Source: Patescibacteria group bacterium (lineage in GTDB: Bacteria; Patescibacteriota; Gracilibacteria; BD1-5; UBA6164). Taken from it: a DNA stretch of 7,730 nucleotides. Made by a program: the position numbers and the translations under genes. The notes below the pieces were generated by a model. The model did not search any database and was not told the origin of the DNA. It worked only from the letters and a program-made list of their open reading frames with translations. The DNA is taken from the NCBI GenBank assembly GCA_018623505.1, contig JAAZVM010000018.1, forward strand, positions 1-7,730, written 5' to 3'. Positions 258 through 6,790 of this stretch are shown in pieces. How positions within the stretch are numbered: the first letter of the stretch is position 1; each line of letters starts with the position of its first letter.

Positions 258-1070
258 TTAATATTGTCACAATATCATAATTTTTTTTGTAAAAAACTCT
301 AGTTCGTCTAGGGCTTTTTTTAGGTCTTTATTTTCTAGGTTTCATTCAAATTCAAGCCAAAAGTAATAACTAAAGCTTTTATTATAACTAGGCATACTTT
401 CTATCTTTTTCAGGTTTATATTGTTTGTTGCAAAAGCTCAAAGGCATTTGTATAAGCTTGCAGGTATATCTTTTGCTTCGAAAATTATACTTGTTTTATT
501 TGATTTTAAGTTGTAGTTTAGATTATTACTTTTATTTTTTACTATAATAAATCTTGTAGTGTTTCATTTTTGGTCGGCTATATTTTCCTCTAAAATATTT
601 AAACCATAAAGTTTTGCTGCTTTAGTAGAACAGATTGCTCAAACTCATTTTAGGTTATTTTCTTTTATGTGTTTAGCTGATAGAGCTGTATCTCAGAAGG
701 GAATTGGTTTTAAGTTTTTACTTTTTAGATATTTATGACATTGTTCTAATGCTGGCATTTGAGAATAGACTTCTTTTATATCTTTTATATTATCTTCTAA
801 AGAACAAATGCAGTGATTAATTTCAAGATAGTATTCTCAAATAATTTCATAATCATATTTTATAAAACCATAAATATTTGGGTGTATACTTCACATATAA
901 GAGTTTTCTATAGCTAAAACTCATATAGATTCATCAGATATATTTTCCCATACATCACTAAACTCTGGTACTCAAATAATATCTTTTTCTTCTATATCTA
1001 AGTTTTTTGCCACTTCTAATGAAGCTATATTCATATAACTTCAAGGATTTCATTGATAGTATATTTTCAT
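258..1070 (-). CDS. pheA: Prephenate dehydratase with C-terminal ACT domain
   Basis: Cytoplasmic enzyme converting prephenate to phenylpyruvate, the committed step to phenylalanine. It is 270 aa when TGA is read as Gly, a normal length for a stand-alone PDT. Visible motifs: YQGNPGSYMNIAS at the N-terminus (usual YxGxxGSY), SIGVLAIENSYMGSI (usual PIENS..G), MPALEQC (usual AL.QC), DTALSA, and the catalytic TRF (T172-R173-F174) in GNTTRF. The ACT domain follows, with INLKKIESMPS where most PDTs have INLTKIESRPS. The Phe-binding Arg of ESRP is Met226, and the preceding GALV-type motif reads ASLY, so feedback inhibition by Phe may be weak or absent (inference). No chorismate mutase domain is fused. 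ATG 1068-1070 lies one base after the tyrA stop, so the two genes are almost certainly cotranscribed and translationally coupled. Stop TAA at 258-260. Confidence 0.95.
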
Positions 1071-1071
1071 A

Positions 1072-2118
1072 TTAATTTATGTTCCAATTATTTATTTTAT
1101 ATGATTCACCATTTATAAAAAGAGTTTCATTTTCTACTTTTTCAAGTAATCATCTTACTTTTTCTCTTGTATATATGTTTTCTATTGAGACTATTTTTCA
1201 AGTTTTTTTATGGGCAAGTTCAGACTGTCTTCAAATCATATAAATGATTTTATCTGTGTATTCTTGTCATTCATTAGCATCATCTCAAAAGTAATTTTTA
1301 GTTTTTGTAGCTGTTTTTATAAACTTTTTTTCATTTTTATCTTTTACTATTTTGTTGAAATCATTTGTGGTTTTCATAAAAGTTTTATGTACCTTTAAGA
1401 CTTCTTTGTTGTAAATCTGTATATCGCTATATAGTTTTGGATTTTGATTTAAGTATCTAGCTACTGATGATATCATTATCTTGTAAATAGGAGAAACAAA
1501 ATCCATAGATTTTTTTAAATCAAGCTTTAGTCTTCTAATTGTTTCTCAAAAAACAAACATATCAAAGTGAGTTAATCATTGAACAACTGCCATCATTTTG
1601 TCATGATTTTTAGGTGTCTCTTCTATAACTTTTGCATCATTTTCTTCTAGGAAGTTTTTAAGGAAAATATATCTAGGGTCACTTTTATCTTTTTTTTCTG
1701 GACAAAGTACAAAAATCTGACCAGCAATAGTAGATATATATGGACCAAACATAGGGTGAGTTGGGAGTACTAAAACTCACTTTTTACAATATTTTCTAAG
1801 AGCTTTACTCGGACTATCTTTTATAGATGTTACATCTAAAGCCATAGCTCACTTTTTTATGTATGGTCAAACTTGTTTAATAGTTTCAACCATAAATCAT
1901 ATAGGTACTGCAAATATAACTACATCAGCTTCTGTAACTGATTTTATATTATCAGTTTCATAATTACAGCTTAACTCACTTGATAGTTTTTCTAGTTTTT
2001 CTATATCCCTTCAAGTGATAGTTAAGTTTATATTTTTTGTAAAAGATTTAGTTATAAAGCTAGCTAGCCACTTACCAAATCAATCACTTCATCATATGAT
2101 AGTTATATTTTTTCTCAT
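1072..2118 (-). CDS. tyrA: Prephenate dehydrogenase (TyrA), resembling archaeal-type enzymes
   Basis: NAD(P)-dependent oxidative decarboxylation of prephenate to 4-hydroxyphenylpyruvate, the tyrosine branch. It is 348 aa with TGA read as Gly. It starts with a Rossmann dinucleotide-binding loop, IIGGSDGFGKW (residues 7-17; G9 and G10 are both TGA), then DVTSIK, the catalytic-His motif HPMFGP (H121) and HDKMMAVVQGLTHF (from H172). The helical dimerisation domain includes SPIYK and LYSDIQIYN, which recall archaeal-type TyrA proteins; that resemblance is from memory, not a search. About 50 C-terminal residues rich in Lys and Glu follow, with no recognisable ACT domain. It lies between a 116-aa unknown gene and pheA in an operon preceded by a Phe/Tyr attenuator. 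No Shine-Dalgarno sequence is visible before ATG 2116-2118. Prephenate rather than arogenate as substrate is assumed from the family. Confidence 0.93.
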
Positions 2119-2174: not shown

Positions 2175-2525
2175 TTATTGAGTTTCTAAAGTTGTTGAAA
2201 CTTCAGATTTTTTTCCTTCTATTAAGTCATATATTTTTCTTACTAATATATTACTGTATCTTATTTTTTGATATAAAAGGTGATCCTTAGGTAATAAATC
2301 TCTTCAATTTCAATTATATACATATATTGAGAAATCATTACCATCCTCACTTATAATTATTTCTTCATTTATAATTCAGTCTTGTCAGTTAATATCTAAG
2401 CATATTGAAATATCTCAATTAGCCATATAATTATAATATTTTATATTTATAGATTTAATATCTATAGCTTTAAGATGTCATACTTCTCTTGGTATCCATC
2501 CTGTAGGGAAAAGTCAATTTCACAT
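2175..2525 (-). CDS. Hypothetical protein, 116 aa, first gene of the tyrA-pheA operon
   Basis: Open from ATG 2523-2525 to TAA 2175-2177 when TGA is Gly (116 aa). I do not recognise the family. The N-terminus reads MGNGLFPTGWIPREVGHLK. The middle alternates hydrophobic residues as beta-strands would (ISICLDINGQDGIINEEIII, then FSIYVYNGNGRDLL), and the last 35 residues look helical and charged (ILVRKIYDLIEGKKSE). There is no signal peptide or membrane segment. An internal ATG at residue 34 (MANGDIS) is an alternative start. Position is the main clue: it lies 15 nt after the attenuator U-run and 56 nt before tyrA on the same strand, so it is probably under aromatic amino acid control. A chorismate mutase would be expected in such an operon, but I see neither AroQ nor AroH signatures. 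It could equally be a passenger gene. Confidence 0.75.
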
Positions 2526-2540
2526 AATATAATTTTTAGT

Positions 2541-2575
2541 AAATAAAAAACTCTTTTGATTGTTCAAAAGAGTTT
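2541..2575 (-). terminator. Intrinsic terminator of the tyrA-pheA attenuator (segments 3:4)
   Basis: A 12-bp perfect stem (AAACTCTTTTGA on -, 2575-2564, with its complement 2559-2548), a 4-nt loop, and on - an overlapping run of six T (2550-2545) then ATTT. It lies 21 nt after the leader-peptide stop and 15 nt before the first structural gene. On + it is followed by GTTTTTG, but no + gene precedes it, so its role is most likely on -. Confidence 0.9.
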
Positions 2576-2596
2576 GTTTTTGTAATAGTTTTAAAT

Positions 2597-2683
2597 TTAT
2601 TTAAATACAGCAAAAAACATCTTTGAACAAAAGATTATTTCAAAGTAGAAAAAGAAAAATGTATTTTTTGCTAAATATTTCAT
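2597..2683 (-). CDS. Phe/Tyr-rich leader peptide of the attenuator (28 aa)
   Basis: ATG 2681-2683 to TAA 2597-2599, 28 codons. The peptide starts MKYLAKNT, then residues 9-14 are Phe-Phe-Phe-Phe-Tyr-Phe (TTT TTC TTT TTC TAC TTT), with further Phe at 18, 23, 24 and 27. In all, 9 Phe and 2 Tyr make 11 aromatics in 28 residues, with no Trp. This is the hallmark of a leader peptide whose translation senses charged tRNA; enterobacterial pheL is a short peptide of the same kind. The start lies about 29 nt after the predicted transcription start. Only a weak purine stretch (CAAGAAA) precedes the ATG, as for other genes here. Neither T-rich DNA nor frame alone fully explains the pattern, because the ORF begins and ends exactly between promoter and terminator and its aromatic run abuts segment 1. 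Both Phe and Tyr are sensed, matching the two end products of tyrA and pheA. Confidence 0.85.
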   Translation of the reverse strand: MKYLAKNTFFFFYFEIIFCSKMFFAVFK

Positions 2684-2718
2684 TTTCTTGAAATTATTTA
2701 AAATAAATTTGTAATTTT

Positions 2719-2748
2719 ATTATATAATGTTTTTTGGTTATATGTCAA
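2719..2748 (-). promoter_or_regulatory. Consensus sigma70-type promoter of the attenuator/tyrA-pheA operon
   Basis: On -, TTGACA (2748-2743), an 18-nt spacer and TATAAT (2724-2719): both hexamers are perfect. The predicted start is near 2712, just before the closing helix of the leader. The -35 box overlaps the last bases of the U-tract of the tagA terminator, so the two transcription units are packed without a gap. Confidence 0.85.
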
Positions 2749-3707: not shown

Positions 3708-4601
3708 ATGGAAAAAATTAAAAAGGGTGATATTCTGAATGCTGTAGAAGATTGAGTTTTAGAGTTATCAGAACTAGCATTATTTATGAAAAATAAAATA
3801 GATAATACTTTATTTAGTGAACTTAATATGCGTAATTTAAACTCTCTCCGTAAATTTAAAAGTTCAGCTTCTAAATATGAAAAAGAGAGATTTAATTATA
3901 TAAATGAATTTTTAAAAAACCTATCACAATTTAGATGAGTAAAGTATCATAAGACATTACAGGAAATAAATTGAAAAACATATATAATTATTGATGAAAG
4001 TGAGAAATATGAAGTTATAGAAAAAATATGAAGTTTTTATATTGCATATGATCATATAAAAGGTACTACTGTTATTTATAGAGTTATGTGTTCAAAAAAA
4101 GAAATTATAGGAAACAGGAGTATTAGAAAATTATTTGATAATTGTCAGTGATTTTCTGATGATATAGATTTATGAGATAATACTGATAAATCTATAATTA
4201 GTATATGAAAATATAAAAAAGTTGAATGTTTAGGTAAATATTGAGATACTTTTTTATTTGTTTGAGAGTTATCTAATAGGACAAAAGAAATTATAGTGTT
4301 AAGATGAATAACTATTAAAAAAATACCTTTTTGAACTAGAAGTATTAAAAAAACTAGTTCTAACAGAACCTTGCTATTTATTTTTAATCATGGAATTTCT
4401 AGTTATAAAGTGTCTCTTTTTGACTTAGATAATATGAATTATATTTTTGAAAATGCAGATTATATAGATACGGAGACAATTAAATCAGAATCTGGAGATG
4501 AGGATTATGTTAAAAGTGTTTGTTGGCATCATAATAAAGATAGAACTTGAATGCTAAAAGGTTTATGAAAGAAAACTATAAGAGAAAAAAAAATTTTTTA
4601 A
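3708..4601 (+). CDS. Hypothetical protein, 297 aa, likely paralog of the next gene
   Basis: ATG 3708-3710 to TAA 4599-4601, open only if TGA is Gly. A second ATG at 3704 is in another frame. Family not recognised. The first 75 residues look helical and charged (MEKIKKGDILNAVEDG, then SLRKFKSSASKYEKERF). The rest alternates short beta-like strands (KTYIIIDESEKYEVI, GDTFLFVGELSNR, LLFIFNHGISSYKVSLFDLD). The tail is basic (KGLGKKTIREKKIF). No signal peptide, membrane segment or catalytic motif is seen; Cys and His residues near the C-terminus (VCWHHNKD) are not in a known arrangement. Several blocks recur in the same order in the downstream protein (see findings), suggesting tandem duplication. 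It has its own consensus promoter and forms a two-gene operon with the next gene, 20 nt away. Confidence 0.85.
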
Positions 4602-4621: not shown

Positions 4622-5593
4622 ATGTCTATACCTAAATTAAGTAATTCAGCACTAAAAGTTTTTAATTGAGAAAAGCCAGATGAACCCACTAAACCTGATT
4701 ATGGTAGAGAGGTTTCAGAATTGTATATTAAGTGAGTGGAGTCTGTTATGGAAGGACAAGAAGTTATATGACCACATGACCAATCGTTAAAAAAAATAAC
4801 TAAAGAGGATTTTTTCAATTTAATGCTTTCTACATCAAGAGATGTAGTTTATAGTAAGTCAGCTATACTTTATTTAATAGACAAGTTTAGAAAATGACTT
4901 AGTAAGGCAGAATCTAGATACTTAAGAGCAGCCTGATACTATTACATAAAATGAAATAAGAGGTTATCAGAATTTGAGTTTGAAAATGAGAAATATCTTA
5001 TAAATGATTGAGCTATATATAGTATAGTTTACTCATTTGATCGTATTATAATTGCAACAAATGAGGATTCTAAAAAATCAATCATAACAAGAAGTTTTTC
5101 TTTAATGAATCATTGAAACTCATCAGAAATATTTGATTTTCAAATCCAAAGTATTGAAAAACCTTTTTCTACTATATATAAAATAACTGATACAGAAGGC
5201 AATGTATATTTTTTTGATATTAGTAGTAATAGAGTTTCTCAAATTTGAAATACAAATTGAGTTTTTGGTTTGGAAAATTATGATAATGATATTTATCATT
5301 ATATAAATGAAAGTGATAAGGCGGTTGTAGGACATATTTTTTATGATAAAGTTTTTGATAGATGAAGAATTGAGGAACTAGATAAGAAGTTTGCTTTATT
5401 AATAGATGATAGCACTTGATTATATGATTTGTATTCTTTTGATTCAAAAAAGTTTTTATTTGAGTGATTAAGTAGAGATTCATTTGAAAAAAATTGAGAT
5501 TCATATTCGTGGGAATTAGAAACAGAAAGACAAACTTTGCTTTGAAGATTTTTTCTTTGACCTAAAACTGTTACAGAAAAAGCTAGTAGATAG
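4622..5593 (+). CDS. Hypothetical protein, 323 aa, likely paralog of the preceding gene
   Basis: ATG 4622-4624 to TAG 5591-5593, with TGA as Gly throughout. Family not recognised. A polar N-terminus (PKLSNSALKVFNGEKPDEPT) leads into a helical part (to about residue 110, with AGYYYIKGNK), then a beta-rich region with repeated aromatic strands: YSIVYSFDRIIIATNED, GNVYFFDISSNR, FALLIDDSTGLYDLYSFDS. The C-terminus is LLGRFFLGPKTVTEKASR. The alternating strand pattern could be a beta-propeller or similar fold, but no WD, kelch or NHL signature is clear. No signal or membrane segment is evident. It follows the paralogous gene by 20 nt and is closed by a strong terminator. The C-terminal third aligns by eye with that of the upstream protein. 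Function is unknown; a pair of related but diverged proteins could form a heteromer (inference). Confidence 0.85.
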
Positions 5594-5646: not shown

Positions 5647-6765
5647 ATGGATAAATTTCAAGAGAAAAAAATCGCAATAGTTTGTGATTGGATAAAGGAT
5701 TGGTGATGAGCTGAGATTGTTTTAGAGCAGCTTTTGGAGATATTTCCAAAAGCTGATATTTATAGTTCTGTTTTTTTTCAAGAAGATAATCCACTTTTTA
5801 AAGATAGGATTGTAAAAACAAGTTTCATACAGAGAGTACCTTTTTTAAATAAGTCTCATAAACTAGCTCTTTTTTTAAGACCTTATGCTTTTGAAAGCTT
5901 TGATTTAAGTGATTATGATATAGTTATTACAAGTACAAGTGCTGAGAGTAAGTGAGTTATAACTAAGCCAGATTGTCTTCAAATATGTTATTGTCATACA
6001 TCAACTCGTTATTTTTGGAGTCATTATCATGAGTACCTTAATATGATGGAGTTTTGAAAACTAAACTTTTTGTGAAAGTTTTTTATGCCAAAAATAGTTC
6101 ATAAACTTAGAACTTGGGATTTTTGTGCCTCAGCAAGACCTGATTATTTTATAGCTAACTCTATAAATACTCAAAAAAGGATAAAAAAATATTATGCTAG
6201 AGAAAGTCATGTGATTTACCCTTGTCTTGATATAGAAAATATAGATTTTTTAGAAGAAAAAGAAGACTTTTATCTATATGTATGAAGATGTATACCTTAT
6301 AAAAAGTTTGATTTGATAGTTGAGGCTTTCAATAAAAACTGAAAAAAAATAAAGATAGTTACAAATACTGACAATAAACTTTATAGAGATTTAAAAAGTA
6401 TTTCAAAAGAAAATATAGAGTGGATACTTACAAATGATATAACATATATTAACAAGCTTCACTCTAAGGCTAAGGCTTTTATATTTCCACCAGAAGAGGA
6501 TTTTGGTCTTGTTCCAATTGCTGCTCAAGCTAGTGGTACACCGGTTATAGCTTTTTGAAAATGATGAGCTTTAGAGACAGTGATAGATGATAAAACTTGA
6601 GTTTATTTTTCTGAGCAAAATATAGATAGTCTAAATGGTGCAATAGAAAGGTTTGAAAATATAAAGTTTGATTATAAATATATAAGAGAACATAGTAAAA
6701 AGTTTGATAAAAAAGTTTTTAAAAAAGAACTTTTAAATTTTATAGAAGAAAAGCTAGATAATTAA
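5647..6765 (+). CDS. GT4-family glycosyltransferase (GT-B fold) with an altered EX7E motif
   Basis: Cytoplasmic, probably membrane-associated enzyme transferring a sugar, often mannose, from a nucleotide-sugar during surface polysaccharide or glycolipid synthesis. It is 372 aa with TGA as Gly (11 TGA codons). The N-terminal domain opens IAIVCDWIKDWGGAE, the donor-independent GGAE loop, with G20-G21 encoded by TGA TGA. Then come ADIYSSVFF and CYCHTSTRYFWSHYHEYL, typical of WbaZ-like mannosyltransferases. The C-terminal Rossmann domain has YVGRCIPYKKFDLIVEAF, FPPEEDFGLVPIAAQASG and TPVIAFGKGGALETV. The family's EX7E motif would be E284-x7-E292, but residue 292 is Ala (GCT). Changing any Glu codon to GCT needs two substitutions, so a single sequencing error is unlikely. 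Only one ATG precedes the conserved start, and it directly abuts the upstream terminator. The acceptor is unknown; TagA nearby suggests surface-glycan work. Confidence 0.92.
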
Positions 6766-6790
6766 TTATCTAGCTTTTCTTCTATTTTTT
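6742..6790. terminator. 44-nt perfect palindrome: shared terminator coding the ends of two convergent genes
   Basis: Positions 6742-6785 are a perfect palindrome (22-bp arms, centre between 6763 and 6764), followed on + by T6. It is entirely coding in the GT4 gene up to its stop (6763-6765) and, by symmetry, in the PHP gene on - (stop 6764-6762). On - the downstream sequence is AAAATTT rather than a U-run, so termination there relies on the stem and may be weaker. Confidence 0.85.

Follow-up and report, generated by a model that had tools for sequence, protein, structure and literature searches.

The minus-strand element at positions 2748-2541 of the window (the whole 7,730-nucleotide stretch that was analysed) is predicted to be a ribosome-mediated transcription attenuator, which would set the expression of a 116-aa ORF, tyrA and pheA according to the supply of charged Phe (and Tyr) tRNA. 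A probability of about 0.86 is given to this reading. It is supported since aromatic-rich short ORFs go with aromatic genes at many loci, a competing antiterminator pairing accompanies most of them, and the distance from the aromatic codons to that pairing is nearly fixed. The order on the minus strand is a glycosyltransferase gene (WecG/TagA/CpsF family, ending at 2759), promoter, leader ORF, terminator, 116-aa ORF, tyrA and pheA, with the following features:

2743..2748, minus strand: promoter -35 hexamer TTGACA, exact consensus match
2719..2724, minus strand: promoter -10 hexamer TATAAT, 18 nt from the -35 hexamer
2597..2683, minus strand: leader ORF MKYLAKNTFFFFYFEIIFCSKMFFAVFK, 28 codons, stop codon TAA, with 9 Phe and 2 Tyr
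2642..2659, minus strand: control codons Phe-Phe-Phe-Phe-Tyr-Phe, in the leader ORF
2639..2645, minus strand: segment 1, CTTTGAA, 7-bp pairing with TTCAAAG at 2621-2627
2622..2630, minus strand: segment 2, TTGTTCAAA, with segment 1 or 2560-2568 as alternative partners
2609..2672, minus strand: outer stem, AGCAAAAAA (2664-2672) with TTTTTTGCT (2609-2617), enclosing the 1:2 hairpin
2548..2575, minus strand: terminator hairpin, segments 3 and 4, stem 2575-2564 / 2559-2548
2541..2550, minus strand: terminator T-run, 3' of the stem
2175..2525, minus strand: 116-aa ORF, first gene past the attenuator, no Pfam match, also readable from an upstream TTG
1072..2118, minus strand: tyrA, prephenate dehydrogenase (PF02153, PF20463)
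258..1070, minus strand: pheA, prephenate dehydratase (PF00800) with an ACT domain that scored under its cut-off

The elements named in the original prediction were recovered. The perfect TTGACA-18-TATAAT promoter lies where it had been placed and is the only 12-of-12 match in the window, where promoter-like matches overall were at chance level (60 against 58.9 expected). The codon and residue counts of the leader ORF and its FFFFYF run proved right, as did the 7-bp hairpin at the aromatic codons (2645-2639 with 2627-2621), and Pfam confirmed tyrA and pheA downstream. Segment 2 (2630-2622) does have two partners, being complementary over 9 bp to TTTGAACAA at 2568-2560, within the 5' arm of the terminator. 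The terminator has the 12-bp stem and U-run described, with 3 G-C pairs and a loop of ACAA, and is predicted to cause termination. The outer stem, absent from the original prediction, was added here; with it, the ribosome-free leader is predicted to fold into a single long hairpin consisting of 1:2 plus the outer stem. Counted from the first nucleotide of the leading Phe codon in the run, segment 1 begins 14 nt downstream, so that it is predicted to lie under a stalled ribosome. No Shine-Dalgarno-like sequence was seen by eye ahead of the leader ATG.

The host genome (597 kb, 64.5% complete, with the window as one contig) decodes TGA as Gly, as had been claimed: tyrA alone holds 15 in-frame TGA codons. 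The leader ORF has none and reads identically under the standard code. DAHP synthase was not found in this incomplete genome. The 116-aa ORF has one relative besides itself in the protein database (P0002, 76%), with a different N-terminus, and a search of 352 other genomes of the class gave no good match, the single weak hit carrying in-frame stops.

The promoter match, the Phe-rich ORF, segments 1 to 4 and the competing complementarities are read directly from the sequence, and from them we infer the regulatory steps as follows. With ample Phe, the ribosome would proceed to the stop codon; segment 1 would then pair with segment 2 in its wake, allowing the 3:4 terminator to form and to end transcription near 2541. 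When Phe is scarce, the ribosome would stall on FFFFYF and cover segment 1; the free segment 2 would then capture the nascent 5' arm of the terminator, and RNA polymerase would continue. An untranslated leader would adopt the long 1:2 hairpin, again with termination.

Folding was consistent with the outline of this switch. For an RNA ending at segment 3, the best fold was the 1:2 hairpin extended by the outer stem when unmasked, and the antiterminator when the first 13 or 16 codons were masked. In the full leader with the control codons masked, the terminator fold was still favoured at equilibrium, at about -17 versus -12.6 kcal/mol. Since the terminator fold is lower in energy even then, the switching would have to be kinetic, depending on the order of transcription.

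The leader ORF is hardly reproduced by chance. An ORF with at least 11 Phe/Tyr codons plus a run of six was obtained in 0 of 5000 dinucleotide shuffles, with ATG alone or with ATG/GTG/TTG as start codons, while the run of six by itself appeared in 2/5000 (ATG) and 7/5000 (ATG/GTG/TTG). Among 965 short ORFs of any frame from the window and the comparison loci, four had such a run, the window leader being one of them. The window antiterminator (dG -11.8) had p = 0.006 against 500 shuffles, with p of about 0.004-0.006 over both tests applied, and the best duplex of leader and 5' arm (-11.2 kcal/mol) was matched by 7/2000 shuffles. Taken alone, complementarity between segment 2 and the 5' arm is only moderately unusual and would not settle the case, since an exact 9-bp match was reached in 62/2000 shuffles and the duplex energy was equalled by 24 of 722 other segments of the AT-rich window.

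Instead, the hairpin could terminate the transcript of the upstream glycosyltransferase gene, or a short RNA, driven by the promoter, with constant read-through into tyrA-pheA and a Phe-rich ORF arisen by chance. The AT-rich genome, a hairpin with a T-rich tail on both strands, the other window segments pairing equally well with the 5' arm and the close tyrA orthologues without a leader would agree with this. It is nevertheless judged unlikely in view of the shuffle result for the ORF, of 10 other FFFFYF sites from the window genome, none of which had short ORF, terminator and gene in succession, and of the coincidence of aromatic leaders, antiterminators and aromatic genes across families. 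At the DNA level, the FFFFYF pattern alone is non-specific, being present in 45/48 family genomes. At loci centred on it, a short ORF, hairpin and gene were found in 1/50 (L118), where the hairpin is weak and the gene 267 nt further; these 50 include three overlapping pairs, and the sites at L054 and L067, found through pheA, are outside the count.

Matches to tyrA were obtained in 21/60 genomes, including that of the window, and 11 of the others are close orthologues (L002-L012). An aromatic leader with terminator was found upstream of 0/11 of these, two having under 310 nt available upstream; aromatic short ORFs near them sit within genes or, in L010, more than 1 kb away. Since a gene resembling by eye the upstream glycosyltransferase abuts tyrA in L007, L009 and L010, the leader and the 116-aa ORF were likely inserted between the two genes in the lineage of the window, and the element at the tyrA position appears to be lineage-specific. 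There was no same-genus genome among the relatives or family genomes. The original prediction had expected a conserved leader in relatives: analogous leaders at aromatic operons were indeed found, while the leader was missing at the 11 close tyrA orthologues, a result it had named as counting against the attenuator. This absence is not taken as a refutation, since the leaders of the clade stand before differing aromatic operons. Covariation was examined on these analogous leaders, the window element itself having no alignable orthologous leader. A contig search with a single tyrA query gave no match. In the best 80 loci for a Gracilibacteria tyrA profile, the records after Gracilibacteria (within L257-L323) were mostly named as methanogens or other archaea, hinting at transfer.

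Prephenate dehydratase was found in 186/353 genomes of the class and DAHP synthase in 164/353; aromatic synthesis genes are thus not rare, contrary to the original view of a lineage with few amino acid pathways. For analogous leaders, 213 loci from tyrA, pheA, DAHP synthase, FFFFYF and 116-aa ORF searches were scanned on both strands; the stretches fetched included 40 upstream of pheA, 40 more (38 for DAHP synthase) and 20 around FFFFYF sites. The rule required a terminator-like hairpin outside genes, a gene at most 250 nt after it and, before it, a short ORF with at least 5 Phe/Tyr/Trp in 7 codons. Pairing between leader and terminator was not a criterion, so that the scan was blind to the antiterminator. 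The window element was skipped by the rule because the TTG-start reading of the 116-aa ORF overlaps the terminator, and it was added by hand. Gene identities were taken from Pfam, from phmmer against those proteins or from overlap with search hits.

The scan yielded 318 hairpins, 186 of them with a following gene, and 34 rows with an aromatic ORF, some rows being for the same leader. After removal of copies, 25 leaders stood ahead of aromatic genes and 5 ahead of non-aromatic genes. The nine rows dropped were L209 on both strands (copies of L069), second rows of L016 and L196, and the five non-aromatic ones (L069 minus strand, L120, L139, L182 and L192), whose antiterminator p values were above 0.17. 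The device is therefore not peculiar to the window genome. Leaders were found in 20/68 regions taken for DAHP synthase (one gene being there twice) and in 4/70 pheA regions (L029, L054, L067 and L069); others precede a chorismate mutase-pheA gene (L213) and a tyrA more distant than the 11 orthologues (L016). The operons at L067 and L054 begin with shikimate kinase (aroK) or lead to aroA, aroC and pheA. By the scan rule, most regions had no leader (48/68 for DAHP synthase, 66/70 for pheA). The leaders span eight families of the class (f1, f6, f14, f21, f25, f27, f33 and f34), f6 by L195 alone; examples are MRNLRQNYFFFFFGNIFFFKGCFFSI (L176), MKIFAFDFFYFWFRASEQN (L198), MQNLFFYFWNFYFAPSRVRVRS (L190) and MKINNLSLNFFFFYFSSYFLK (L054). 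The leader ORFs of L176, L177 and L178 carry an in-frame TGA and are full length only if UGA is read as Gly.

Aromatic leaders were strongly associated with aromatic genes. Over 176 distinct hairpins with a gene, a leader was present at 24/43 before recognised aromatic genes versus 7/133 others (Fisher 3.5e-12), and two of those seven, L054 and L069, actually head aromatic operons. An exact TTGACA was the best -35 match ahead of 14/26 leaders, a raw count without chance control. By eye, the 26 leader peptides share little beyond the aromatic cluster, close relatives apart. This, together with the position of the leader ORFs before aromatic genes, speaks against the ORF encoding a small membrane peptide that has a function and a terminator of its own, an explanation which the hydrophobic character of the peptide would suit and which is regarded as extremely improbable.

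To evaluate the antiterminator in the window and the 25 leaders, the sequence following the aromatic codons was paired with the 5' arm of the terminator, and the best duplex was compared with those of 500 shuffles. It reached p <= 0.05 in 23/26 leaders, window included; the misses were L174 (0.074), L198 (0.078) and L195 (0.61), the only f6 leader. Near-identical leaders within the 26 (L176-L178; L198, L202 and L206) inflate any combined p. With a fixed 66-nt stretch, p <= 0.05 was obtained for 22/31 hairpins with aromatic leader and gene, 17/145 with a gene and no such leader, and 7/114 without any gene after them. Split by gene, the counts were 21/24 for a leader with a recognised aromatic gene, 1/7 for a leader only (this one being L069), 6/19 for an aromatic gene only and 11/126 for neither. 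Two of the six are Tyr-run leaders before tyrA that were missed by the rule, MNFQAKITSYYYTFSL (L016, p 0.005) and MNTLQVSYYYKNGLTAGVF (L205, p 0.040). Upstream of position 1435, L016 carries two tandem attenuator-like units before tyrA, the first with SYYY and the second with FF, YYF and YLYY.

Stalling might also act through translation or Rho-dependent termination and not through a choice of hairpins, which would accord with the equilibrium preference for the terminator despite masked codons. The competing pairing in 23 of the 26 leaders argues against it, and so does the position of the next gene, at least 14 nt past the hairpin in all 25 scanned leaders and 22 nt in the window, where the 116-aa ORF follows; the stem and T-run common to all scanned leaders were a selection criterion and carry no weight here. 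This route is considered quite unlikely.

The mean distance from the first aromatic codon of the cluster to the start of segment 2 is 31 nt (SD 4.3, range 18-39); the distance of segment 2 to the stop codon varies widely. Shuffled leaders gave an SD of 15.3, never below 10.2, and 0/300 rounds were as tight as the real spacing. A ribosome held at the aromatic codons would be the simplest reason for this near-fixed spacing. Six DAHP synthase leaders from the family of the window showed changes on both sides at 4/12 columns of the 2:3 helix; the column pairs came from duplex folding, so that breaks are unsampled, and three of the six leaders are near-identical. MAFFT misaligned segment 2 in these leaders, and the pairs were anchored on the AAGG core instead.

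T-box, riboswitch and TRAP-like devices are known on amino acid operons of other bacteria, and a tRNA-, metabolite- or protein-binding attenuator of such a kind, with the ORF irrelevant, was weighed on that ground. It would leave the near-fixed distance from codons to segment 2 without a reason. With Rfam 15 at E <= 1, the window gave three matches, all under the gathering score, two of them being a plastid 3' UTR hairpin on the terminator, and 20 other loci with leaders gave one tRNA at gathering score and nothing else. Neither the window nor these loci thus matched any Rfam leader, T-box or other family at that score, bar the tRNA. Such a device is held to be very unlikely.

The ribosome-mediated attenuator, with codons matched to the pathway, is likely to operate at aromatic genes (in some genomes Trp and His genes) of many members of the class and of some bacteria outside it. 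Short frames with Trp-Trp were found before trpE at 7/30 loci, all of family f15, with a terminator 56-64 nt on, just ahead of trpE; the start codons of these frames are provisional. The antiterminator had p <= 0.05 in 4/7, and the two loci covered by the wider test had 0.060 and 0.114 there. The Trp-Trp frame and terminator are conserved in these f15 loci (L217, L218, L223, L224, L236, L238 and L241), and in several of them TGTACC-like repeats, seen by eye just before the frame, may be an operator or promoter. Leader ORFs with HHH, a terminator and an antiterminator preceded hisG at 2/30 loci, L365 (p = 0.010; its other hairpin 1.000) and L378 (p = 0.015).

In a phylum-wide sample, DAHP synthase was found in 23/221 genomes, of which 13 lie outside the class. 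In 5 of these 13 (L324, L328, L334, L342 and L343) the gene is preceded by an aromatic leader with p <= 0.015, L342 having 4 and not 5 aromatic residues in 7 and L343 a weak DAHP synthase match. Trp codons in or beside the aromatic cluster were present in nine leader genomes, all nine with a PF00425 enzyme, compared with 6/16 without Trp codons (hypergeometric 0.0025, calculated by hand, with 7/9 genomes from one family). This is suggestive of Trp codons tracking PF00425, a family that is not TrpE alone. TTC accounted for 37/79 Phe codons in 11 leaders from the family of the window, versus 64/529 in long ORFs of the same loci; three of the leaders are near-identical and the long ORFs are putative genes. 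On balance, these results lean towards ribosome-mediated attenuation as a standard, probably ancient control of aromatic, Trp and His genes in Patescibacteria (CPR), with codons tuned to the branches retained and the rare Phe codon TTC favoured. Tuning here would mean Trp codons only with a TrpE-type chorismate-binding enzyme, Tyr runs at tyrA, and Phe runs at pheA and DAHP synthase.

Leader-peptide attenuators control the pheA, trp and his operons of proteobacteria, and a comparative study of such attenuators was reportedly made by Vitreschak and others in 2004. The window element resembles them in having a cognate-codon ORF, protector hairpin, antiterminator, terminator and biosynthetic operon. 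It differs in its host, a member of the Gracilibacteria with UGA as Gly, and in that tyrA-pheA would be controlled along with a 116-aa ORF. As a ribosome-mediated attenuator, it has the cognate ORF, terminator, antiterminator and protector hairpin as predicted elements, with conservation at the same operon, a usual but not strictly defining trait of the kind, in 0/11 relatives with a close tyrA orthologue. CPR bacteria, Gracilibacteria included, are largely uncultured and are regarded as poor in regulation.

Outside Proteobacteria, the same principle is represented by the actinobacterial leader peptides of Seliverstov and others (2005, PMC1262725) and by a His leader in bacilli (PMC2965389, which also mentions T-box as against leader peptide switches); the host phylum of the window differs, and the likeness to these leaders is one of principle and not of sequence. 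According to PMC7143001, Gracilibacteria belong to Patescibacteria (CPR), and the leader peptides treated there are those of bacteriocins. The original statement that no such device had been described in Absconditabacteria or Gracilibacteria agrees with the literature search: among the matches listed from open PMC papers, there was no account of leader-peptide attenuation in Gracilibacteria, Absconditabacteria, Patescibacteria or the candidate phyla radiation. The element would be a known kind of device, and not a singleton, in a host lineage for which no report of it was found among these papers.

If the attenuator reading is true, these bacteria sense amino acid scarcity and probably couple transcription with translation, and the amino acid sensed is legible from DNA. 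In metatranscriptomes, leader termination versus read-through could then serve as a readout of their starvation. Leader-peptide attenuation would also be extended to a phylum for which the search of open papers gave no account of it.

Elsewhere in the window, two adjacent plus-strand ORFs of 297 and 323 aa (3708-4601 and 4622-5593) had no Pfam match. In addition, an inverted repeat of at least 20 pairs at 6742-6785, between convergent genes, is likely a terminator.
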